Source of the DNA: a virus
Strand: one strand, 5' to 3'
DNA: 23,278 nucleotides
Virus record (IMG/VR): IMGVR_UViG_3300037427_004936
Coordinates: 1-23,278 of that record
The notes beneath the pieces are model-generated. The model saw only the letters and a program-made list of their open reading frames with translations, was not told the DNA's origin and did not search any database. Position 1 is the stretch's first letter, and each line of letters begins with the position of its first letter. This document shows positions 6,859 through 22,041 of this stretch, in pieces. The position numbers and the translations under genes are program-made.

Positions 6859-7425
6859 GAACGTCGGGGAACTGGTCGTTTCCGGCGCTGGTAAAGAGAA
6901 CTTGACTACCCTGTCCGCTGGTAAAGACTTCTTTACCAGGAGAACCCGTTGGTAATAGAGCGTAGATCGCGCTGGCACCTCCAGTTCGCGTGCAGTCGTT
7001 TCGACAACGTAAGTCGCCTGCTTCGGGACGCGTTTGTCCCACTTTCGATGACACGAGATACAAAGCCATCGCACCCTTAACGGTTCGTCATAGTTGAAGT
7101 GTGCGCCCTCAATCTGGCGATTCTCCGCGCCACACTCCTCGCACATGGTCGGTCGGGCAATGTTCCCAGCCCGAACGTGGTACCGAAGCAGGCTCTGCGC
7201 GTTTTTCGCCTTTGTTGTCGTCTTGCGTGTGGATCGGCGTCCAGTTGACTGAGCTTTGACTTTGCAGGGATACGAGCAGAATCGGCGGGACAATCGGTCC
7301 ATCACAAACACGTTGAGGCAGACCGGACAGATCGTCCATGACCGAGGCCGGCGATTACCCCCGACTTTGCGCCGTCCCAGCGAGCACTTGCGACCGTGGG
7401 ATTTGATTTCCTTCAGAATCAACAC
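6829..7425 (-). CDS. HNH-like zinc-binding protein
   Basis: This 198-residue basic protein has two metal sites. Near residues 32-52 is a treble-clef-like CPVC with FCSYPCKVKAQ. Near residues 93-123 is CEECGAENRQIEGAHFNYD followed by LRVRWLCISCHRKWD, the pattern of small phage HNH/zinc-finger proteins in which the His of GAHFNYD is catalytic or structural. It could be a nuclease helping packaging or a DNA-binding regulator. The start was placed at the GTG at 7425 because AAAGGAG lies seven bases upstream. The frame is open further upstream, but the extension lies inside the methyltransferase gene. Even so it overlaps that gene's end by 71 bases. Its last residues lie in repeat copy B. Confidence 0.7.
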   Translation of the reverse strand: MLILKEIKSHGRKCSLGRRKVGGNRRPRSWTICPVCLNVFVMDRLSRRFCSYPCKVKAQSTGRRSTRKTTTKAKNAQSLLRYHVRAGNIARPTMCEECGAENRQIEGAHFNYDEPLRVRWLCISCHRKWDKRVPKQATYVVETTARELEVPARSTLYYQRVLLVKKSLPADRVVKFSLPAPETTSSPTFAPVATEGGL

Positions 7426-8710
7426 GAAACGGCTCCTTTCCTGTAAATGTGCTCCAACGCTCACAGATCACATCGCAATACAGGCAATCGAGTTCCATCA
7501 GGAACGCTTTGCGGCCCGTCTGCTCGGCGGCCATAAGCGTCGAGCCGGAGCCGCCGAACAGGTCGAGCACGTTCTCGCCGGTCCGTGATGAGTACTGCAT
7601 GGCCCGCACGGCCAGTTCGACCGGCTTCTCGGTCAGGTGAATCATCGACTGCGGATTGACCTTCTTGACCGCCCACAGATCGGTCGCGTTATTCGGGCCG
7701 AAGAACTGATGAGCTGCACCTTCCCGCCATCCGTAGAAGCACCACTCGTGCGCTCCCATGTAATCCTTGCGGGTCAGCACGGGATGCTGCTTGTCCCAGA
7801 TGATTGCCTGCGAGAAGTACAAACCATGCTTCTTCAGGAACGGCGGGTAGTTGGCACAGTTCGCATAGCCGCCCCAGATATAGAACGCCCGACCAGGCTC
7901 AAGCACTCGCGCCGCGTTTCCGAACCACGCGTCGAGCAGCCGGTCGAACTCTTCGTCGGACACGAAGTCGTTTGCCAGAGGACGATCTTTGGCACGCAGC
8001 TTCTTCTGCGTCGGCCTGGCTTTCCCCGGATGCCGTTCAACGTCCAGCTTCTGGTGATGCTTTGCGCCCTCGAACGAGGACAGGCCCGCCGCGATCGCGT
8101 TGTTCGACCGCGGCTCGACCTTCACGTTGTAGGGCGGATCGGTATTCACCAGGTGAATCGACTGACCGTCGAGCAGCCGATCCACGTCCGCTGGCTTCGA
8201 GCTGTCCGCACACAGCAATCGGTGGTCGCCAAGGATCCACAGGTCGCCCGGCTGTGTGATGGCTTCGTCCGGTGGCTCCGGAACCGCGTCCGGATCGGTG
8301 AGCCCTTCCTTCACGCCCGGGTCGAGCAGCTTTGCGAGGTCATCTTCCGTAAAGCCAAGCATACCGAGGTCGAAGTCCATCTCGCCCAGCTGCGAGAGTT
8401 CGATGGGCAGCAGGTCGTAATCCCACTCCGCGATCTCGCCCGTGCGGTTATCGGCCAGGCGGTACGCCTTCACCTGTGCCGGCGACAGCCCCTTCGCCAC
8501 ATGGACCGGCACCTTCTCCAGCCCCAGCTTCTGAGCCGCCTTGAACCGCGTATGGCCGACGATGATCACGCCGTCCTCATCGACGACGATCGGCTGCCGG
8601 AATCCGAACTCCTGAATGCTCCGCACGACAGCTTCAACCGCACCATCATTGATCCGCGGGTTCTGCTCGTAGGGATTAACGTCCGCCAGCTTCCGCTGCT
8701 CGATTCTCAT
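7355..8710 (-). CDS. ParB-domain DNA methyltransferase
   Basis: This 451-residue fusion starts with a ParB/Srx nuclease-like domain (VNPYEQNPRIN, SIQEFGFRQPIVVD, VIIVGHTRFKAAQKLG; residues ~8-70). It continues with an amino-methyltransferase: motif IV DPPY near residue 190 and motif I FGGSGSTLMAAEQTGRKAFLMEL near residue 405. The order DPPY then FxGxG places it in the beta class of N6-adenine or N4-cytosine enzymes. The target-recognition region lies between them (Lys/Arg-rich, residues ~200-260). Such fusions are common in phages and islands as orphan methylases that protect or regulate element DNA. No dedicated partner nuclease gene is beside it, although two HNH proteins flank it. The ATG at 8710 was chosen for GGAG at 7 bases. 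Confidence 0.9.
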   Translation of the reverse strand: MRIEQRKLADVNPYEQNPRINDGAVEAVVRSIQEFGFRQPIVVDEDGVIIVGHTRFKAAQKLGLEKVPVHVAKGLSPAQVKAYRLADNRTGEIAEWDYDLLPIELSQLGEMDFDLGMLGFTEDDLAKLLDPGVKEGLTDPDAVPEPPDEAITQPGDLWILGDHRLLCADSSKPADVDRLLDGQSIHLVNTDPPYNVKVEPRSNNAIAAGLSSFEGAKHHQKLDVERHPGKARPTQKKLRAKDRPLANDFVSDEEFDRLLDAWFGNAARVLEPGRAFYIWGGYANCANYPPFLKKHGLYFSQAIIWDKQHPVLTRKDYMGAHEWCFYGWREGAAHQFFGPNNATDLWAVKKVNPQSMIHLTEKPVELAVRAMQYSSRTGENVLDLFGGSGSTLMAAEQTGRKAFLMELDCLYCDVICERWSTFTGKEPFRVDSEGNQIPRSQVLAGTAQSRG

Positions 8711-8792
8711 GATTTGACTCCGTTCAGAATTCGGTCCGGACACAAAGAAAACTCTCATCAGTAGTGCGGCTGTTCCCGCGGGGATCTCAATC

Positions 8793-9083
8793 TCAGTTTC
8801 CCGGAGAAGGAACCACTCCCTCTGCATGCTCAATGTTGCCGACGACATCCCTGCACAGTTCGACGAACTCCTCCACGGTCAACGACCCTTTGGCTGTGTT
8901 TGCCTGATAATCGAGGACCTGCAGGTTGCTGATGTCGTGGGCGCCGCCGCGGGACAGCGGCAGGGTGTGGTCCAGTGATGCTGTTTCAGGAGTCAAAGCT
9001 CGTCCGGTCAGTGCGCACCGGTAGTCTTGCTGCCTGATCAGATTGAGAATCTGCTGTCCCGTTACGGTGGGCGGTTTTTGCAT
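8793..9083 (-). CDS. Small HNH endonuclease
   Basis: This 96-residue protein carries a complete HNH signature: CALTGRALTPETASLDHTLPLSRGGAHDISNLQVLDYQAN, with the Asp-His pair, the Asn, and a modified last position where the usual final His is replaced (the segment reads VLDYQANTAKGSLT). This matches small HNH nucleases of the phage/CRISPR HNH_5-like type that keep AKGxxT. It would cut or nick DNA with a divalent metal. The ATG at 9083 is fixed by a near-perfect ribosome site (AGGAGG, 5 bases away). The start lies inside the end of the upstream gene (98-base overlap). HNH genes beside terminases often aid packaging; here it sits beside a methyltransferase. Confidence 0.8.
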   Translation of the reverse strand: MQKPPTVTGQQILNLIRQQDYRCALTGRALTPETASLDHTLPLSRGGAHDISNLQVLDYQANTAKGSLTVEEFVELCRDVVGNIEHAEGVVPSPGN

Positions 9084-13696: not shown

Positions 13697-14041
13697 TCAG
13701 ACCTCGATAATCTGCACGAGCGTTCTGCCACCTTCGACGGGATCGGCTTTCCGGATTCGCAGGTCGACGATCTGGCTGTCGTCGATGTAGACACCGCCGT
13801 GCTGCAGGGCATCGAGGAGTGCCTTCGGAATGTTGTCGATGTCACGCCGACGACGATCAGGCGGTGAGGCCACGATCAGCATTTCGAGTTCTTCCGTGAG
13901 AGGCACAATCGATGTCTCCGCGAGGATCGCCAGCACGGTTTCCCGAAACCGGCGACCCTCGCGGCTGATCAGCGTGCGTGGTCCGACCCGTCGCCAGTAG
14001 TGGTTAATCGACGGTGGCCACGGCAGTTTCAGTTCCACCAT
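13697..14041 (-). CDS. rusA: RusA-like Holliday junction resolvase
   Basis: This 114-residue endonuclease resolves four-way junctions. The start LPWPPSINHYWRRVG is the RusA signature, and the core RRRDIDNIPKALLDALQHGGVYIDDSQI contains the catalytic acidic residues (the two Asp of DIDN and the DD pair). The family acts as a dimer at CC dinucleotides. The ATG at 14041 overlaps the DUF669 stop in TGATG, and an alternative start five codons upstream is less likely. It completes a set with Sak4-like ATPase, DUF669 protein and helicase typical of phage recombination. Confidence 0.88.
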   Translation of the reverse strand: MVELKLPWPPSINHYWRRVGPRTLISREGRRFRETVLAILAETSIVPLTEELEMLIVASPPDRRRRDIDNIPKALLDALQHGGVYIDDSQIVDLRIRKADPVEGGRTLVQIIEV

Positions 14042-14499
14042 CAGGCACGACTCCACGGAGGCGTCCTGACTGATGTTGCTGCGGCCGCAGCGACCGGCGC
14101 AGACTCTTTCCGGGAGTAACCGCGGATCTCATTCGTAATGTCACCCGTGTCGTCACGCCGTCGGCAGCGTACGTGGATCACGAGTGGCAGGTTGTGAAGT
14201 TCCACCGAGTCCTTCGGAGCCATGACACCGACGGCTCGACACACAGCCGACAGTTCCGCCTTCGCGATGGCGACAGCCGTCGCGTTCGGGTTATCCAGAT
14301 TCAGGCGAGCCCACAGAATCCGATTGCTGTGAGGTCCCTCGATGATCTGAAACGTCAGTTGCAGATACTGGCCCGTGCCAGCCTTCGTCGGTTTCTTTTC
14401 CGACTCAGTGATGACGGCCACGTACTTGCCGGCTGGAATCGCTTCGAAGTCTGATGTTGGTTCCACTTCGTTCGCGTCGAATCCTTGCAGGTCAGCCAT
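14041..14499 (-). CDS. DUF669 protein, probable ssDNA-binding
   Basis: This 152-residue protein has the DUF669 hallmarks: FEAIPAGKYVAVITESEKKPTKAGTGQYLQLTFQIIEGPHSNRILWARLNLDNPN, then KAELSAVCRAVG and a C-terminal beta section. The family is phage-encoded and co-occurs with Sak4-like ATPases, where it is thought to act as a single-strand DNA-binding partner. An Ala-rich linker (APVAAAAATSV) leads to a short PPWSR end, similar in plan to SSB proteins with a flexible tail. It starts 6 bases after... that is, it overlaps the end of the ATPase gene by eight bases and precedes RusA with a TGATG overlap. Confidence 0.85.
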   Translation of the reverse strand: MADLQGFDANEVEPTSDFEAIPAGKYVAVITESEKKPTKAGTGQYLQLTFQIIEGPHSNRILWARLNLDNPNATAVAIAKAELSAVCRAVGVMAPKDSVELHNLPLVIHVRCRRRDDTGDITNEIRGYSRKESAPVAAAAATSVRTPPWSRA

Positions 14500-15277
14500 T
14501 GTTTTCTCCTATTGATGGTTTGGTTGATGAGAGTGCGTTGATGAAAGCCGTCCACGAGAGGTCGATTTCCTCGTCGATGCCGTAGCGGTTCTTTGCGATG
14601 CACGACGGTCCGCCAACGCAGCGCAGAATGCGTTCGCCGCCAGCGTTACCGATTTCTTTGGCGATCGAACGTTTGCGGCCGAAGCCGGCGTCTTCCGTCT
14701 GAGTGCGGAACTTACGCGTGGCGAACAGCACGGCATCCGACCATTCATTGACGAGTGCACCAGCATGCTTGTGCAGCCGAGGCGAATAGCGGTCGTAAGC
14801 GGCGGTTTCCGGGTCTTCGAACTTCTCGACCTTCGCATGAGCGATGCAGATCACCACCATGCCACGTTCGGTTCGAAGTCCGTTCAATGCGTCGAGCACT
14901 TTGCGCCAGAGTGAGACAGCGTGCGTGTAGCCCTTGGCATAACCGCCATCGACCTTCTCGATCGATGAGACGTTGTACTGCTGGCAAAGGTCGTCCCAGA
15001 TCAGACGCTCCAGCCAATCCAATGAATCAATCACGACCGTCTGGTAGTCGTGCTGCTCCATTGCGAGCTCGGCCAATGCCGTCTCGACGTCTTCGAAAGT
15101 GGTGGAAAGCGGGAATCGGTCGCAGTCGATCTCCGCGAGCCCATCTTCAGTCTGGATGAAGACGGGTTTCGGAGCCTGCGCCGCAAACGTGCTTTTTCCG
15201 ATGCCCTCCGTCCCGTACACCACCAGCCGTGGTGGCATGGGTTGCCGCCCCTTCTGGACTTGGTTGATCAATGCCAT
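14492..15277 (-). CDS. Sak4-like RecA-fold ATPase
   Basis: This 261-residue protein is a phage nucleotide-binding recombinase of the AAA_24/Sak4 type. The P-loop is VYGTEGIGKST (near residues 20-30), followed by FIQTEDGLAEIDCDRFP, then Walker B VVIDSLDWLERLIW near residue 75, and VVICIAHAKVEKFEDPE near 140. Sak4 proteins are single-domain Rad51/RecA relatives that promote annealing and exchange with a DUF669-like partner, which lies next here. The ATG at 15277 (MALINQ) was chosen because the family begins this way; ATG at 15298 is an alternative. The upstream gene's reading frame overlaps this one by about 130 bases. Confidence 0.85.
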   Translation of the reverse strand: MALINQVQKGRQPMPPRLVVYGTEGIGKSTFAAQAPKPVFIQTEDGLAEIDCDRFPLSTTFEDVETALAELAMEQHDYQTVVIDSLDWLERLIWDDLCQQYNVSSIEKVDGGYAKGYTHAVSLWRKVLDALNGLRTERGMVVICIAHAKVEKFEDPETAAYDRYSPRLHKHAGALVNEWSDAVLFATRKFRTQTEDAGFGRKRSIAKEIGNAGGERILRCVGGPSCIAKNRYGIDEEIDLSWTAFINALSSTKPSIGENNG

Positions 15278-15581
15278 TCGCTGTTTTTCTTTCGTCATCA
15301 GGTTCGTTTTGTGGATTGGTTCGTTGGATCGAGAAGGCTTCCTCGCCGAATTCACGGATCAACAGGGCAGTGAAGACGCGGACAACCACCGCTCCGACTT
15401 CCGTGCCGGCGTCCACGCCAATGACGTGGTGGTCCTCATCGAGTTCGTATTCCGCTTCGAGTCGGACGAGTGCCCGACCGAAGAGGCCCTCCGTGGCAAT
15501 GAGTGCGAGATGCAGCGACATCTCTGCGTCCTGCAACGGCACTTCTGAATCGAACTCAAAGCGAATGGCGTCCGCGTTCAT
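15147..15581 (-). CDS. Small acidic hypothetical protein
   Basis: This frame encodes 144 residues with no recognised family. The first ~90 look coding: DAIRFEFDSEVPLQDAEMSL, then LALIATEGLFGRALVRLEAE, then VDAGTEVGAVVVRVFTALLI. They suggest an alpha/beta fold. The last ~50 overlap the Sak4-like gene in another frame and have an unlike composition (rich in Ala, Gly, His, Thr). The third frame has TGATGA at the 15298 ATG of the ATPase, the arrangement expected for a native stop. A late frameshift may thus have extended this gene. It is the first gene after the promoter-like element at 15605-15643, with AGGGAG before the GTG/ATG start. Confidence 0.55.
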   Translation of the reverse strand: MNADAIRFEFDSEVPLQDAEMSLHLALIATEGLFGRALVRLEAEYELDEDHHVIGVDAGTEVGAVVVRVFTALLIREFGEEAFSIQRTNPQNEPDDERKTANGIDQPSPEGAATHATTAGGVRDGGHRKKHVCGAGSETRLHPD

Positions 15582-15649: not shown

Positions 15650-16225
15650 TCAGAATCCGGCGTCTTCGAGATGCTCACGGGCTTCGGCGATGGCGTTGCG
15701 GACCTGACGCCGCGACGTGCCAAGATCTCGAGCGGCGCTGGAGATCGAGCCGTTCATCAGGGCACGGCACACGTCGACGGTTTTCGGAGTCATCGAGTCG
15801 AATGCCGAATCGAGTGCTTCTTCGTTGTCACAACGAACTTCGTCACTGACCCAATCACGCTGGTGATGACGCGCTCGCTCGGACTCGGCGATGGTGTTTC
15901 CAAACGGTTCAACGTGGTTGTCCTGTTTGACAAGCACATCGAGCGAACGGGCACAGCAGCCGGCAGCGCGTTTTCGTCGCAGTTGCTCCCGCAGCATCAT
16001 GCGGGTCGCGGTGTTCACAACACGATTGATGAACGTGTTGACCGAGGCGCGATCGGGATTGAAGTTCGGGACCTGTTGCAGCAGTGCAAGGCAGAGTTCC
16101 TGCTGCAGGTCCTTCATGTCGTAATGGCGAAAGACGCGGCGACGGGACAGCGATCGGGCCTTGAAGCGAATCAGATCGCGGGCGTATTTCGTGAAGAAGC
16201 GGTCGCAGTTTTTCTCATGGGGCAT
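15650..16225 (-). CDS. Sigma-70 family RNA polymerase sigma factor
   Basis: This 191-residue protein has the two-domain plan of small sigma factors. Region 2 is seen as FRHYDMKDLQQELCLALLQQ, then FNPDRASVNTFINRVVNTAT, then RMMLREQLRRKR, with the helix that contacts the -10 element. Region 4 is a helix-turn-helix (SISSAARDLGTSRRQVRNAIAEAREHL). The linker is Cys/His-bearing (AAGCCARSLDVL). Region 1.1 and region 3 are absent. The ATG at 16225 was chosen for an upstream GGAGTCAGGA; an in-frame start at 16300 is possible. Its stop lies next to the promoter-like element at 15605-15643, so it may direct RNA polymerase to the island's own promoters. No anti-sigma gene is apparent. Confidence 0.8.
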   Translation of the reverse strand: MPHEKNCDRFFTKYARDLIRFKARSLSRRRVFRHYDMKDLQQELCLALLQQVPNFNPDRASVNTFINRVVNTATRMMLREQLRRKRAAGCCARSLDVLVKQDNHVEPFGNTIAESERARHHQRDWVSDEVRCDNEEALDSAFDSMTPKTVDVCRALMNGSISSAARDLGTSRRQVRNAIAEAREHLEDAGF

Positions 16226-16424
16226 TCCTGACTCCGTGGCCGGAGACAGGCACCCGGGATGTCGCAGAGTGCGACAAGCGTCGTGCTGCGGTGACGCCAC
16301 CGCTTATCCATCACGAACGCGACTGACTGCCGGGTTATGCCCCATCGGCCTTCAGTCGGCTGCTGCGGTGTCGCGTTTTGAGTGAGCTGCGATGCTCGAT
16401 TCGTAGACCTCGCCCTGCGTTAAC

Positions 16425-17282
16425 TCATTGGAAATCCATTGCTTCGGGACGATTCGGGATTTTCTTTCGACTGTCGCGGCGTTGCGACGCGACAGTGCGT
16501 CGCACGGATTCACTGTCCTGACCGGAAGCAACCGCCGACTGGCCGCCGGCTCGCTGCAGCGCACGCTGTACTTTGTCTTTGGAGATGCGACTCCCGGTCT
16601 GCTCGCTCAGGAAATCGGCGGCCTTCCGAACGGAACCCGCCTGCCGATACGCGGCGACGAGCACATCATCCGTCAGACTCGACTTCTCTTCGGCCTTCAC
16701 CTGTTGGCGAACAACAAGTTTCAACTGCCGTCGATCGATGACCTGCTCAATGGCCGTACGCGATTCGTCGGAAGCACTCACCCATGAGAAGACCGCGTCG
16801 AGATCGATTTCCAAACCACTTGATCCGAAGTGCGACACCTGCGACAGCGGAACGACGGCCGGAGCGTCTCTGGACCAGACCGAGTCTCCTGGAACCCGAT
16901 CGGGAACGAGGATGATCGCCTGCGAAAAACGCTCAATCTGATTGATCACCGTGGCTGCATCGGTGTCGTACAGCCTTCGTGCGAAGAACACGTCACGAGT
17001 GCTGCTGCCCCATTTCGCTCGCCCAAGTTGCCAGAGCCGGCCGGGAAGGATGGACGTCAGGCGACCGGTGAGCCCCAGTTGCTGCGTGACCGCGCCGATG
17101 GCCGGTTCGATCCTGATTGTCCATCGCTGCAGATCCTCTGGTTCGAGTTCGACCCGTCCGTGCGCAGAACATGGAATGAAGATGCGAGAGTTGCCGTCAG
17201 GCCCGGTCAGAACGATCGGCTCCTCATAGTGCTTTTCGCCGCAGTCGGGGCATGGGATCAGGCCCGCCTGTTCTGCGAGCAA
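16425..17282 (-). CDS. Unknown protein with zinc knuckle and C-terminal HTH
   Basis: From the TTG at 17282 this gives 285 residues. Near the start is CPDCGEKHYEEPIVL with a further Cys-His pair (IPCSAHGRVELE), a likely zinc site. The middle (RLTSILPGRLWQLGRAKWGS, DVFFARRLYD) is unplaced. Residues ~210-245 form a helix-turn-helix (DVLVAAYRQAGSVRKAADFLSEQ). The native N-terminus is probably longer: 38 sense codons upstream (ELLDALDVDAVRLSADQLRA and onward) look coding up to the upstream gene's TGA at 17397. An ATG at 17400 overlaps that stop but is one base out of frame; dropping one C from the CCC at 17394-17396 would join it. It pairs with the 398-residue gene upstream. Confidence 0.6.
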   Translation of the reverse strand: MLAEQAGLIPCPDCGEKHYEEPIVLTGPDGNSRIFIPCSAHGRVELEPEDLQRWTIRIEPAIGAVTQQLGLTGRLTSILPGRLWQLGRAKWGSSTRDVFFARRLYDTDAATVINQIERFSQAIILVPDRVPGDSVWSRDAPAVVPLSQVSHFGSSGLEIDLDAVFSWVSASDESRTAIEQVIDRRQLKLVVRQQVKAEEKSSLTDDVLVAAYRQAGSVRKAADFLSEQTGSRISKDKVQRALQRAGGQSAVASGQDSESVRRTVASQRRDSRKKIPNRPEAMDFQ

Positions 17283-17396
17283 CAGCCAGCCACGGTCCGC
17301 CAGCCACGCGACGACGTCGGCGGGCCACGCACGAAGCTGATCGGCTGACAGCCTGACCGCGTCGACGTCTAAAGCGTCCAGAAGCTCGGCGTCGGG

Positions 17397-18593
17397 TCAT
17401 TCATCGCAGATCCCCCAGAGACGCAGGCAGCGTTCTCCGATCGCCCGCAGCCGGTCAGACTTGCTCTTAAGATCGCATGCATTCGGACTGCTCACCGTGA
17501 ACGAGAGCGTCTTCGCCTTTCGACCGTCGCCGAGAAACTGCAGCTGAAACCGCGCCTGCCGGACGCGAAGCAGGTCGGACGAATAACCACGATCTGCCAG
17601 ACGCTCGCGGATTTCACTGGCGACCATCTCCAGCGACGCATGAGGCGAAAACCCAAGTTCTTCATACGTCACGCAATCCAGATCGCACTGTGGAGCGATC
17701 CGAATACGCGTGAGCCGCACTGCTGCGATGTGGTCACCCGGATCCGTCGGCAGCGTCAGATGCGGATCCAGCAGGTGGTCGAGGTGATAAGCCGGTAGAA
17801 CGGGTTCGCCGTCAGGGACGTTCATTCTCAGCACGGACCGGCAGAAAGCCTGCCGCAACCGTAAATGCACGGCGCGTCCGCCTTTCGCCACGAGATCGAT
17901 ACATCCGCCTTGTGGGTCGTAGGCAAAGACATTGGTGAAGGCGTACCGTTCCGAACGGGTGGCCATTTCACCGTCGTCGTCAAATGCCATCAGACGATCG
18001 GGCCAGTCGTCGAGGTAGGCAAAAAAGAAGTCCACTCCGTTGCAACGTGGATAGTGATGCACACGGCAGTGCCGACCTCGCAGTTCTCTCGGCCAGTAAT
18101 ACTTTCGCAACTCGTTCTCGAGGGCTTGCAGTTGCTCTGGTTCGACCGCGATGGACTCATGCGGAAGTCCATTCCATCGATTCCAGTAACGCCCGGTCGT
18201 CAAGGTGTCGGCACACGCGAAGATCGAGGCCTGGTCGAAGACGTCGCGAGCAAACAGGTACGCCCACAACGCCTTGTCGAACCGGCCTTCCCGGGCAGAG
18301 TATTCGTCGGTGCCTTCCGGCTGCTGCCACTCCAGCTGCTGCGCCAGTACCTTGAGGCCTCGCTCGCAGGCCATGCTCTGAACTTCCTGCAGAATGACAT
18401 GCACGCGACGGCGTTCCGCTTCCGGCATGGTCTCCCACAACAAAACGATCGGTGCGACATCCCGGTGCTTAAGATCGTCCCACGGAACGTTCAGCCGGGC
18501 CCCGAGCCGCGTGAACAGTTCGCGGAGCAGATCGTTGGATGTTTCTTTCAGCAGTCTCAGTGGATCGAATGGCTTCACGTCTGGTTTTCTCAA
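17397..18593 (-). CDS. Large unknown protein, partner of downstream gene
   Basis: This 398-residue protein has no family I recognise. The N-terminal 130 residues are helical (DPLRLLKETSNDLLRELFTRL, APIVLLWETMPEAERRRVHVILQEVQ). The middle has Cys/His/Trp-rich segments (YYWPRELRGRHCRVHHYPRCNG, then VDFFFAYLDDWPDRLMAFDDDG) and a segment on protein-like beta structure (CIDLVAKGGRAVHLRL). The C-terminal part mixes helices and strands. The start is uncertain: TTG at 18593 lacks a clear ribosome site, and GTG at 18578 is an alternative. It ends at 17397, where the next gene overlaps it or is interrupted. Two large unknown co-oriented genes between a sigma factor and a restriction gene could be a defence or control pair; this is a guess. 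Confidence 0.6.
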   Translation of the reverse strand: MRKPDVKPFDPLRLLKETSNDLLRELFTRLGARLNVPWDDLKHRDVAPIVLLWETMPEAERRRVHVILQEVQSMACERGLKVLAQQLEWQQPEGTDEYSAREGRFDKALWAYLFARDVFDQASIFACADTLTTGRYWNRWNGLPHESIAVEPEQLQALENELRKYYWPRELRGRHCRVHHYPRCNGVDFFFAYLDDWPDRLMAFDDDGEMATRSERYAFTNVFAYDPQGGCIDLVAKGGRAVHLRLRQAFCRSVLRMNVPDGEPVLPAYHLDHLLDPHLTLPTDPGDHIAAVRLTRIRIAPQCDLDCVTYEELGFSPHASLEMVASEIRERLADRGYSSDLLRVRQARFQLQFLGDGRKAKTLSFTVSSPNACDLKSKSDRLRAIGERCLRLWGICDE

Positions 18594-18753
18594 AGTAGTC
18601 TGATCAAAAACGCCTCCGTGCCGTCATGATGCGCAGCCCGCGCGCACCGGAATCATGCCGCAGCCAGGCTGCTCGGCGCACAGTTCAGTGCGCACAGCGA
18701 ACCCGACTGGGTATCAAAGGATGTGGCGGACAGCAGGTCCGCAAAGACGGTGA

Positions 18754-18981
18754 TCAGACCACGGGCGGAGGCAGTTCGTGCTCTTCGAATCGCCCCTCGC
18801 GATCGCGGGCAAGGAACGACCAGCCGGACCAACTGCCCCAGGCACAGAGAAAGATTGCTGCGTCGGTCAGCGGTCGGGATTTGAGCGAGTCAAACATCCA
18901 ATGCGTCCTGCACCAGAGAGTGCTGCAAACGTCGTGCAGCAGGTTGTTGATGAATTGGTCAATGAGGCGAAATGTACGCAT
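18754..18981 (-). CDS. Small hypothetical protein with hydrophobic segment
   Basis: This 75-residue frame has a coherent composition: RTFRLIDQFINNLLHDVCST, then MFDSLKSRPLTDAAIFLCAW and GSWSGWSFLARDREGRFEEH, ending ELPPPVV. The stretch LTDAAIFLCAWGSWSGWSFLA could be a short membrane span, though it is weak. No family is recognised. It lies about 160 bases upstream of the 398-residue gene and 150 bases downstream of the HNH restriction gene. The flanking gaps hold nothing recognised. Confidence 0.4.
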   Translation of the reverse strand: MRTFRLIDQFINNLLHDVCSTLWCRTHWMFDSLKSRPLTDAAIFLCAWGSWSGWSFLARDREGRFEEHELPPPVV

Positions 18982-19129: not shown

Positions 19130-20020
19130 TCAGTTGCCAAGAAACCGATGCTTTCGGTGCCATCGCAGGTGTCTTTGATCTGGCCACAGTTTCTCGTTTC
19201 GCGGTAGTCGAAGACGTTCCCCCGCGAAATCCAGCAGCGATCGCTGGTTTGGACTCGATTCCGTGAACTCCTCGGCCGCGACGAGGATTCGGTAGTCGTT
19301 GTCGATTGACCAGAGCCCGGAATCGAACAACCAATGGGCGTTCTTGCTGAGGGCCATCCCGTTCTGCGGATCATTATTGAGCGAGTCCGCAAACTGATGG
19401 ATGTGTGCCGCATCAACGATCGCCCCGGCGGCCACCGTATTGACTCGATATCCGGTCAGAGCGCATGTGTAGTCATACGCAGCTGCGACATCGAGGCGAA
19501 ATCGACCAGTGCGCCCGGCCTGACTGGCGTCATCTGGAGTCTCAAACATCGCGTGCCGGGCGATCTCGTCGTCGGTCGGCACATCGAGACCGACGAGGCT
19601 GTAGAGAGCATTGCGTTCAGCCGGCTCAAAGTGTTTCGCGATCAGAATCTGCCGGGCTGCCATTCGAAAGTCCGAATCCCGACATGCAGCAGCGAATTCG
19701 GGATCGACGACAATGAACCGCGTCACCGATCGATGCGTGGATGGCTCGCCAGAATCTGTTCGAGCCGACCAGAACCCTTGAGTCTTCAGATGATGAAATG
19801 GCATTCGCACATCGAGACGCTGAGTTCGGCGATGCTGCACGACGCTGGCAAACGTCTCGAACTGAAATGCCAGCTCAGGAGTCAGGAACTGGCCGTCCCA
19901 ATCGACCTCACCCCGTTCGGCCATTTCCAGAATCACGAGCAACAGCAAGGGCTTGTGCGGCGCGTTGCCCCTCGCCTTGTTGAGCTTTGTCAGTTTGCCA
20001 AGCCAGTGTTCGTGAGACAT
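19130..20020 (-). CDS. Type IV-like restriction endonuclease (SBD-like + HNH)
   Basis: This 296-residue protein fits the family of phosphorothioate-DNA-dependent McrA-type enzymes. The N-terminal half holds the conserved APHKPLLLLVILEMAERGEV (residues ~20-40) and the MPFHHLKTQGFWS pocket segment (~73-85) seen in sulfur-binding domains. The C-terminal half is an HNH nuclease: CALTGYR at 187-193, VDAAHIHQFADS at 202-213, DPQNGMALSKNAHWLFDSGL at 217-236, with the His, Asn and final His of the motif in place. It would cut modified foreign DNA; which modification it senses is unproven. The ATG at 20020 was preferred over one at 20068 (an N-terminal basic extension). It lies immediately downstream of the recombinase module. 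Confidence 0.75.
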   Translation of the reverse strand: MSHEHWLGKLTKLNKARGNAPHKPLLLLVILEMAERGEVDWDGQFLTPELAFQFETFASVVQHRRTQRLDVRMPFHHLKTQGFWSARTDSGEPSTHRSVTRFIVVDPEFAAACRDSDFRMAARQILIAKHFEPAERNALYSLVGLDVPTDDEIARHAMFETPDDASQAGRTGRFRLDVAAAYDYTCALTGYRVNTVAAGAIVDAAHIHQFADSLNNDPQNGMALSKNAHWLFDSGLWSIDNDYRILVAAEEFTESSPNQRSLLDFAGERLRLPRNEKLWPDQRHLRWHRKHRFLGN

Positions 20021-20083
20021 CGTTCTTTGCCGTCCGAGCGTACTATTCCGCATGGGAATCGTAGCCACAGTCAGCGTGGCAAG

Positions 20084-20479
20084 TCATGTCTCCAGACGTT
20101 GCTGCCATTCACGCCGCTGTTCACTCCAATCGATCAGCATTGTCAGCGGTCTCAGGCCCTTCTCATGGATTTGAGCGCGTCCTGTTCTGACCACGGGAAG
20201 AAACAACAGTTCTTCCTGAATGTCGGGAGCCAGATGCAGCAGGTTCATGATCTGGCTGATGCGAGGTTGGGTGACGCTCGAGATCCGCGCCAGTTCCGAC
20301 ATGTCTGACACGACTCCGTCTCGCAGGAGACTGTCGAAGCGAATGGCGAGAGCCATCAGGCGGGACACACGCGGGATCCGATATTCTGGCAGTCCGGCAG
20401 TTGGCGGTGGTTCCGGCTCGATGCGTTTGCGGCCTTGTGCGGATCTGGTGAAGTGAATCTTTCGTTTGACCTCAATCAC
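20084..20479 (-). CDS. HTH protein of recombinase module (KorB/ParB-like HTH)
   Basis: This 131-residue basic protein contains a helix-turn-helix that resembles the DNA-reading segment of ParB/KorB proteins: ALAIRFDSLLRDGVVSDMSE, then LARISSVTQPRISQIMNLLH, then LAPDIQEELLFLP. The N-terminus is basic (VKRKIHFTRSAQGRKR). The GTG start overlaps the recombinase stop by four bases (GTGA), so both are translated together. Similar small HTH proteins follow DUF2924-associated recombinases in Planctomycetota. It may act as an excision or directionality factor, or as a regulator of the module; neither role is shown. Confidence 0.75.
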   Translation of the reverse strand: MIEVKRKIHFTRSAQGRKRIEPEPPPTAGLPEYRIPRVSRLMALAIRFDSLLRDGVVSDMSELARISSVTQPRISQIMNLLHLAPDIQEELLFLPVVRTGRAQIHEKGLRPLTMLIDWSEQRREWQQRLET

Positions 20480-22041
20480 GCGGCGTCCTCCTGTTCGTTG
20501 CTCGCAAGGGCCTTGATGCCCGAATCGTGGAATTGCAGCGACAGGCTGCTGTCCGAAACATCGAACTCGACGCGTTCGATGAGCAGCGTGAGAAGCTGCG
20601 ACTGTTCCCGCGGACTGAGCGCCGTCCAGAGTTCGTCGAAGTCTTCGAAGGCGGCATCGACGTCCTGCCGACTGAGCCGCTGTTTTTCGATCTCAGCGAT
20701 TTTTGTCCGCAGTTCGCGGATGCGGGTGCCTGACTTGTCGATTCGGTCATGGAGATCGGCAATCAATGCAGTCGTGGCTGCGCCTTGCTCAATGCCTGTG
20801 GCCAGCCGCTGAATGTCGGCGTGGTGCCGGCCAAGTTCCCGCTCGAGGCCGGACAACTCCTGACGGAGCCGCTTCAGTTCGATGTCGTCCTGCGACTGCC
20901 CCTGTTTCAGCACTTCTTTGCGAAGTGCCCGGTCAGACCCGATGCAGCGAATCGAATCGACGACCGTTGCCTCGATTTCACCGGCGGGAAGTGATGGGGA
21001 TGGACACCGTTTGCGGCCCTTGCTGATTGCCGCCGTGCAGACGTAGTAGCGGTAGCGTCGCGCCCCCTTACCGGTGAAGGTGTGGGTCATTGTTCGCCCG
21101 CACGCTTTGCACTTCAGAAGTTGCTTGAGCAGTGCTCCGTGCCGGTTACGGACTTCGATGCCACCATTCCGTCCATTCTGACGCAGCCGCGATTGGACCT
21201 TGCGAAACACTTCGGTAGTGACGATCGGTTCGTGCTCGCCATCGAACAAATCTTTGTGGTGACGGAGTTTGCCGATGTAGAGCGGGTTGGTGAGCAGCAA
21301 GTAAAGGCTGCCTTTGTCGAACGGACGGTCGCCTTTCGGGGCTCCCTTCAGGGTCCGCCACGCTTTGTTCCGCCAGTCGCGTTGAGCCAGATCGTCCACA
21401 ACCGGCAGGATTGATCCGTAGTGCAGATACAAATCGAAAATCGTCTGCACGCGGCCAGCCTCAGTCGCGTTGACGACCAGACGGGGGCTCGCGTTAGTTC
21501 GGTCGACATCGTAGCCAAGGATTGGAGTCCCGCCCGTCCATTTCCCGCGTCGCCGCTGAGCCCCGATTTTGTCGCGAATCCGCTCGCCAATGATCTCGCG
21601 TTCAAACTGGGCGAAAGACAGCAGAATGTTGAGCGTCAGCCGCCCCATCGAATGCGTCGTGTTGAACTGCTGCGTGACGGAGACAAACGAGATGTTGTGC
21701 TTCTCGAAAGTTTCCATCAGCCGAGAGAAATCCATCAGCGAGCGGCTGAGACGGTCGACCTTGTAGACCACCACGCAGTCGACCTCGCCCTTCTCGATGT
21801 CGTCCATGAGACGCTTGAGCGCCGGGCGCTGAATGTTGCCGCCCGAGAATCCGCCATCGTCATAACGCTCCGGGAGACAGACCCAGCCTTCGCATTTCTG
21901 GCTGGCGATGTAGGCCTCGGCGGACTCGCGCTGTGCGTCGAGCGTGTTGAATTCGAGATCGAGTCCTTCCTCGGTCGATTTCCGCGTGTAGATAGCACAT
22001 CGAATCTTCGTGCTGGTATTGCGTGCGTCCCTGCGGCTCAT
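20476..22041 (-). CDS. Large serine recombinase (site-specific integrase)
   Basis: This 521-residue enzyme integrates and excises the island. The resolvase domain (1-170) has the nucleophile in YTRKS (Ser22), the conserved DGGFSGGNIQRPALKRLM, VVYKVDRLSRS near 91-101, and SFAQFEREIIGERIRDK. A recombinase domain follows (GYDVDRT... to NPLYIGKLRHHK). The zinc ribbon uses C311, C314, C335 and C346. A coiled coil at ~375-450 and a C-terminal dimer-like segment complete the large serine recombinase plan. The protein is of usual length and intact, so the element may still be mobile. The ATG at 22041 overlaps the DUF2924 stop (ATGA). Its place near the right end fits an integrase next to its attachment site. 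Confidence 0.9.
   Translation of the reverse strand: MSRRDARNTSTKIRCAIYTRKSTEEGLDLEFNTLDAQRESAEAYIASQKCEGWVCLPERYDDGGFSGGNIQRPALKRLMDDIEKGEVDCVVVYKVDRLSRSLMDFSRLMETFEKHNISFVSVTQQFNTTHSMGRLTLNILLSFAQFEREIIGERIRDKIGAQRRRGKWTGGTPILGYDVDRTNASPRLVVNATEAGRVQTIFDLYLHYGSILPVVDDLAQRDWRNKAWRTLKGAPKGDRPFDKGSLYLLLTNPLYIGKLRHHKDLFDGEHEPIVTTEVFRKVQSRLRQNGRNGGIEVRNRHGALLKQLLKCKACGRTMTHTFTGKGARRYRYYVCTAAISKGRKRCPSPSLPAGEIEATVVDSIRCIGSDRALRKEVLKQGQSQDDIELKRLRQELSGLERELGRHHADIQRLATGIEQGAATTALIADLHDRIDKSGTRIRELRTKIAEIEKQRLSRQDVDAAFEDFDELWTALSPREQSQLLTLLIERVEFDVSDSSLSLQFHDSGIKALASNEQEDAA

Follow-up and report, generated by a model that had tools for sequence, protein, structure and literature searches.

Two co-oriented genes lying between a sigma factor gene and a restriction-type gene in a virus-collection record raise the question of whether they constitute a defence pair, as a preliminary description proposed from their location in apparently accessory territory, or an integral part of the phage that carries them. 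The record (IMG/VR IMGVR_UViG_3300037427_004936), analyzed here over its whole length of 23,278 nucleotides and hereafter referred to as the window, encodes a large serine integrase, a primase-polymerase, a helicase, a single-strand DNA-binding protein and a GpA-type terminase nuclease. The combination of a serine integrase with replication genes and a terminase nuclease therefore points to a temperate phage, of which the window is most likely a fragment.

Conservation and genomic context of the ORF1-ORF2 pair

Both genes lie on the minus strand and have the sizes originally described (~398 and ~320 residues). ORF1 (17397-18593) starts with a TTG codon and encodes a 398 aa predicted DNA-clamp protein, while the open frame of ORF2 between stops spans 16425-17396 (about 320 aa). 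The description of ORF2 needs one correction, a frameshift in this contig. The conserved ATG start lies at 17404-17402, across the ORF1 stop codon, as in relatives with an intact ORF2 start (e.g. L002, L033, L009 and L079), and from this ATG the window reads MNDPTPSFWTL followed by TAG, with the conserved frame resuming one base out of phase. Comparison with these relatives places a single-nucleotide frameshift at 17365-17378 (minus strand; CTTTAGAC), which may have arisen in assembly or by recent mutation, or may mark a recoding site; if it is ignored, ORF2 spans 16425-17404 and encodes about 325 aa.

The absence of a recognized family for either gene was confirmed with Pfam, NCBIfam and PADLOC, none of which provided a curated family for ORF1 or ORF2, and a PADLOC search with representatives of both at E-values up to 1 yielded no match. 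The pair is thus not described in these curated libraries. The sole family label obtained was phrog_37634, a PHROG with no recorded function that matches ORF1 over nearly its whole length (residues 34-397, E 1.7e-33); ORF2 has no comparable PHROG match. Searches of named phages via tblastn with ORF1 from the window, from the Tenderia plasmid discussed below and from the divergent locus L048, and with ORF2 from L002, returned no match.

Profile searches revealed ORF1 in 45 of the 347 genomes of a Planctomycetia class sample, several of which harbor more than one copy, and in 17 of the 343 genomes of a phylum-wide Planctomycetota sample. An ORF2 profile, run independently against this class sample, covered the N-terminal part of the protein at 46 places. 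Counted against the ORF1 places, 44 of these fall directly behind a co-oriented ORF1 match; the two others are a partial match in G650 and one in G385. The ORF1 stop and ORF2 start codons usually overlap in relatives. The maintenance of both genes in a fixed order across dozens of genomes indicates that they are more than chance open reading frames, and co-occurrence across genomes upholds their description as a two-gene unit. The pairing also extends to distant homologs. A set of diverged ORF1-like genes (L107 to L111 and L113) is homologous to ORF1 over its full length (hhalign probability 99.7%, E 1e-26), and the gene that follows them is a diverged ORF2 (97%, E 9e-11). A distant full-length pair is likewise present on the Candidatus Tenderia electrophaga plasmid CP013100.1 (hhalign probability 99.8% for ORF1 and 86% for ORF2), and the only other hit in the plasmid search was a weak partial match in Roseicitreum (L014), which was left out of later alignments. 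The preliminary description had named a housekeeping match and a constant separation of the two genes as outcomes that would speak against it; no housekeeping match was found, and the 44 paired places together with the homologous distant pairs therefore exclude constant separation.

On the Tenderia plasmid (L008, 8004-12685) the pair lies directly upstream of a multiubiquitin/Prok-JAB-like/ThiF (E1-like) gene set. Among the 343 Planctomycetota genomes no Multi_ubiq place was detected near ORF1 places, and we judged this association to be a local coincidence.

The genes surrounding the pair in the window are all encoded on the minus strand and were assigned mainly through Pfam, PHROGs and synteny. 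As previously described, the pair sits between an ECF-like sigma factor gene (15650-16300; Pfam Sigma70_r2, E 1.8e-8), which comes after ORF1-ORF2 in most loci, and a restriction-like HNH gene (19130-20068; Pfam HNH_2, E 3.3e-11). The latter matches the phosphorothioate-DNA restriction model NF045808 of NCBIfam with an E-value of 4.5e-36 and a score of 124 bits, below the cut-off of 180, and was the sole PADLOC match when ORF1/ORF2 representatives and this neighbor were searched. Beyond the sigma factor lie genes for an AAA_24/Sak4-like ssDNA-annealing ATPase (14492-15355) and a DUF669 single-strand DNA-binding protein (14041-14499). On the opposite side, a small HTH gene (20084-20479; phrog_14161) overlaps the end of the large serine integrase gene (20476-22041).

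In loci with enough flanking sequence, the usual gene order comprises integrase, small HTH gene, variable slot, ORF1, ORF2, sigma factor, a small gene, Sak4-like AAA_24 ATPase, DUF669 single-strand DNA-binding protein, helicase and primase. Of these genes, the sigma factor could be identified at 44 of 61 loci, the Sak4-like ATPase at 35 and the integrase at 29; some of the loci are nearly identical, and the counts are limited by short contigs. The contents of the slot, identified in part by eye from the sequences, vary from the HNH gene of the window to type I restriction genes, an SNF2-type helicase with an ATPase, or a gene pair for an XRE regulator and an ImmA/IrrE-like protein. Immediately upstream of ORF1, 17 loci have the ImmA/IrrE-like gene and its XRE partner on the same strand, a position comparable to that of cI ahead of rexA in lambda; this XRE/ImmA pair is absent from the window and from most loci. 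In three rearranged loci (L103, L104 and L117) the sigma factor and replication genes are on the opposite strand, and ORF1-ORF2 and the integrase remain together on the other side, indicating that the pair stays near the integrase. Five further loci (L088, L090, L091, L092 and L105) carry ORF1-ORF2 outside the usual module; the Sak4 module was not found in their flanks, and primase-like genes lie beside the pair in L088, L090 and L091. The accessory genes therefore change between phages and the pair does not, identifying ORF1-ORF2 as phage core rather than cargo: the pair belongs to a conserved early module, between the cargo slot and the sigma/replication operon. The argument from location for a defence pair is not supported, since it is the cargo that varies and the pair that is constant.

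Inspection of the region upstream of ORF1 revealed, post hoc, a single pair of inverted 12-mers, GTAGTCTGATCA and TGATCAGACCAC, at 18595-18606 and 18751-18762, flanking the ORF1 start and the upstream gap. These 12-mers have no other exact copies in the window, and matches with up to two mismatches occur there at the number expected by chance, so the repeats were rejected as an operator. No clear operator was identified in this region, the one promoter-like site (18998-18971) being at chance level, and the gap contains no direct repeats (iterons). An Rfam search returned nothing.

Predicted fold of ORF1

The preliminary description suggested profile searches and structure prediction for both proteins. 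The profile searches gave no curated family for either gene, and structure prediction suggested a RexA/RdgC/CENP-N clamp-type fold for ORF1. An AlphaFold2 model of ORF1 based on 19 sequences (pLDDT 84, pTM 0.72) consists of an all-helical N-terminal domain followed by two alpha/beta domains. The helical domain spans residues 11 to 131 approximately (18201-18563, minus strand), with residues 63-131 falling within the region aligned to CENP-N/Chl4. The first alpha/beta domain (residues 134-266; 17796-18194) is TBP-like and contains a conserved RG..C motif (172-176), and the C-terminal alpha/beta domain (residues 287-398; 17400-17735), a candidate dimerization domain, carries the conserved motif P-N-x-C-D-L-K-x-K ... 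I-G-E-R-C-L-x-x-W. The Cys/His/Trp-rich center noted in the preliminary description is present (LRGRHCRVHHYPRC), but it does not constitute a conserved metal site, because Arg172, Gly173, Cys176 and Arg183 are its only widely kept residues.

Comparison of the model with the PDB using Foldseek returned CENP-N or its yeast counterpart Chl4 as all nine best matches (best E-value 3.8e-4; probability 1.00 for 6eqt_B). Structural alignment with VIA-align yielded Z-scores of 8.2 to 6.8 for CENP-N/Chl4 (model residues 63-266), 6.7 for RdgC (204 residues; model 131-398), 6.7 for CENP-L (224 residues; model 76-398) and 5.7 for Iml3 (model 134-398); ORF1 was compared as a whole model, for which Z-scores of 6.7 to 8.2 are borderline, values of 7 to 8 being often met for models without clear relatives, and small alpha/beta domains, for instance from phosphoglucomutase and RnlA, make up the other rows near these scores. 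RdgC from phage JS26 was also among the BFVD matches, with a probability of 0.47. RexA itself was absent among the structural matches listed by Foldseek against the PDB and by VIA-align; these listings fall short of a full search, and the absence excludes nothing.

Lambda RexA, RdgC, Iml3 and Chl4 have a common fold with which they grip DNA as dimers (PMC11077077). The assignment of ORF1 to this fold class is credible because several separately solved relatives of one superfamily top the list and because the domain order fits: the CENP-N/Chl4 alignment takes in the first alpha/beta domain and a portion of the helical domain before it, in the order seen in CENP-N; CENP-L and Iml3 align through to the ORF1 C-terminus; and RdgC presents the same two alpha/beta domains. 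On the basis of the model, ORF1 is therefore probably a DNA clamp of the RexA/RdgC/CENP-N type.

Sequence comparison did not link ORF1 to any of these proteins. With hhalign, the probability of a relation was 0.1-0.4% for lambda-type RexA, 0.3% for Sbash gp30 and 0.06% for E. coli RdgC. Pfam searches with the 19 ORF1 members returned no match to RdgC (PF04381) at E-values up to 10 and none to CENP-N, and CENP-N was not found by searching PDB sequences with the ORF1 profile at E-values up to 10. A RexA alignment placing the conserved ORF1 C-terminus on the RexA dimerization domain was set aside because its probability was just 0.1-0.4%. Compared with RexA, ORF1 has an extra N-terminal helical domain; compared with CENP-N and CENP-L, it resides in prokaryotic mobile elements, and no CENP-L-like match is listed for its ORF2 partner; and RdgC, in contrast to ORF1, is encoded by a housekeeping gene that stands alone, with no ORF2 partner. 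That ORF1 might be a true prokaryotic homolog of CENP-N carried by phages and plasmids is a doubtful proposition, as common descent would rest on one predicted ORF1 model. Our literature search for a kinetochore or TBP-like link to prokaryotes found no paper on such genes.

Predicted domain architecture of ORF2

Analysis of ORF2, modeled from 30 sequences (pLDDT 87), points to three regions on the minus strand. The zinc knuckle of the preliminary description corresponds to a putative zinc ribbon, CPDC-x3-H ... C (17169-17252), in which Cys39, Cys42 and Cys66 (model residues) do not vary among 30 relatives and His46 reaches 76% conservation. This pattern fits a zinc ribbon, and RNA polymerase zinc ribbons also match weakly at the profile level (E 0.2).

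The middle domain (16806-17111) has a PD-(D/E)XK-like topology, with the alpha-beta-beta-beta-alpha-beta order of secondary-structure elements predicted as in PD-(D/E)XK nucleases. Structural matches to this core are weak, the best being the CRISPR ancillary nuclease Can2 (Z 5.6), but many of those listed are PD-(D/E)XK proteins, and Bax1, EndoMS and HindIII are also among the weak matches. A weak profile match over 43 residues (E 0.1) was obtained to XAC2396 (PDB 2g3w), a YaeQ family protein. The D/E/K triad expected in strands 2 and 3 is not conserved, the residues kept there being Arg110, Trp112, Gly115, Arg116, Arg124 and Arg130. This lack of conservation at the catalytic positions in the 30 relatives led us to reject an active nuclease as a reading of ORF2. 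Unlike PD-(D/E)XK proteins and YaeQ, ORF2 combines a core without conserved catalytic acids or lysine with a zinc ribbon and exchangeable DNA-binding ends.

The third region is a C-terminal HTH-type domain (16515-16733), which matches resolvase-, Fis- and LuxR-type HTHs in structure comparison. The HTH proposed for the second gene is thus backed by the model and by weak HTH matches in relatives. This domain differs between relatives: at least five classes of C-terminal part without mutual similarity are found on one N-terminal part, and proteins up to 43% identical over their first 190 residues carry different classes. ORF2 from L079 and L003, for instance, are 43% identical in the N-terminal part and unrelated in the C-terminal part. 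Judged from these sequences, the C-terminal differences represent domain exchange of what would be the targeting end. Two loci encode ORF2 forms of about 480 aa in which a 'PAGxxWxDV' C-terminal domain occurs twice in tandem (L088, 9166-10599; L091, 9196-10647); the L088 form has no Pfam match.

Neither ORF1 nor ORF2 is membrane-like by hydropathy. ORF2 has no hydrophobic segment, its maximum 19-residue hydropathy being 0.91 versus 2.39 for the lambda RexB control.

A putative DNA-bound control unit and its alternatives

The reading that we favor, with a probability of roughly one half, is that ORF1-ORF2 serves a family of temperate phages of Planctomycetota, and mobile elements related to them, as a DNA-bound control unit, and the pair looks like part of the phage control region rather than a bolt-on defence. 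The pairing, codon overlap, synteny, lack of conserved catalytic residues and domain exchange are observed and the folds predicted; that the two proteins bind DNA, touch each other and act on the lysogeny switch is our inference. In this proposal ORF1 would be a non-enzymatic clamp, with its first alpha/beta domain gripping DNA, as in RexA, RdgC and Iml3-Chl4, and its C-terminal alpha/beta domain dimerizing or pairing with another clamp. ORF2 would serve as an adaptor, in which the zinc ribbon and the inactive nuclease-like core contact ORF1, DNA or both, and the exchangeable HTH-type domain chooses the DNA site; exchange of this DNA-binding end suggests retargeting to new operators. Given its position between integrase/repressor-type genes and the sigma and replication operon, the complex would most likely adjust the balance of lysogeny and early gene expression, a part played in lambda by RexA, which biases the switch towards lysis (PMC11077077).

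Among the closest known counterparts are lambda RexA/RexB and RexAB-type systems, likewise co-directional two-gene units of prophages in an immunity-type region; the counterpart of their first gene, ORF1, has a predicted fold of the same RexA/RdgC/Iml3/Chl4 DNA-clamp class. The arrangement parallels cI-rexA-rexB and the partner differs: whereas RexB is a four-helix membrane protein, ORF2 is a soluble zinc-ribbon/HTH protein. ORF1-ORF2 differs from RexAB in having no detectable sequence similarity to RexA and no membrane partner, and in the favored reading the pair would work like RexA with a sequence-specific adaptor in place of RexB.

Three other explanations were weighed and ranked, with Rex-like exclusion first, a role at the origin or in segregation second and RdgC-like recombination control third. 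Under the first, the pair would be a prophage-carried defence in which ORF1 detects the DNA of an invading phage or intermediates of recombination and sets off ORF2, leading to cell arrest or a block of the invader. RexA takes part in superinfection exclusion besides biasing the lysis-lysogeny switch, so that an exclusion role for ORF1, and with it a defence role of the pair, is possible. The predicted fold class of ORF1 (PMC11077077), the protection of hosts by prophage RexAB-type pairs (PMC12894663, PMC6426596) and the slot bordering the pair, which holds restriction genes in many relatives, are all consistent with it. However, without a membrane segment or conserved nuclease residues ORF2 offers no obvious effector, PADLOC recognized neither gene, and the pair is kept with the replication module instead of being swapped like cargo. 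Exclusion is the leading alternative to a control unit, and an unlikely one.

The second explanation, somewhat less probable again, is that ORF1-ORF2 binds the origin or a centromere-like site of the element and aids replication start or segregation. Its location directly upstream of the sigma factor, Sak4, SSB, helicase and primase genes, the primase-like genes adjoining it in three other elements, its presence on a plasmid and a predicted fold common to the centromere-binding CENP-N and CENP-L would all agree with such a role. Yet the window already encodes a helicase and a primase-polymerase, the three rearranged loci keep the pair by the integrase on the strand opposite the replication genes, and the gap upstream of ORF1 lacks iterons. 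The third, in which ORF1 would coat phage ends or restrain host RecA so that the phage Sak4/SSB pathway prevails, with ORF2 targeting ORF1, draws on the RdgC alignment (Z 6.7), the JS26 match and the Sak4 and SSB genes downstream, but it leaves the exchange of HTH-type domains unexplained and is hard to reconcile with the five loci that keep the pair with no Sak4 module found in their flanks; it is very improbable.

With ORF1 present in about one in eight of the sampled Planctomycetia genomes, the pair is a common and so far unexplained component of planctomycete phages, and it provides a testable handle on lysogeny control by phages of a poorly studied phylum. It would also extend the RexA/RdgC/CENP-N clamp fold to a system in which the partner exchanges its DNA-binding end and keeps the rest. 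Should the CENP-N likeness reflect descent, it would bear on the origin of part of the eukaryotic kinetochore: a mobile-element clamp with a helical N-terminal domain, addressed to DNA by a modular HTH partner, would then be the bacterial side of the lineage behind the DNA grip of CENP-N/CENP-L in the inner kinetochore.

Two further genes encountered during this analysis have unusual architectures. The Sak4-like AAA_24 gene of L003 (7593-9428; 611 aa) contains an apparent intein-like insertion inside the nucleotide-binding motif, and a minus-strand gene of the window (7355-8848) joins the N-terminal domain of ParB (Pfam E 2e-8) with an N6/N4 DNA methylase (Pfam E 1.7e-25) in one protein.
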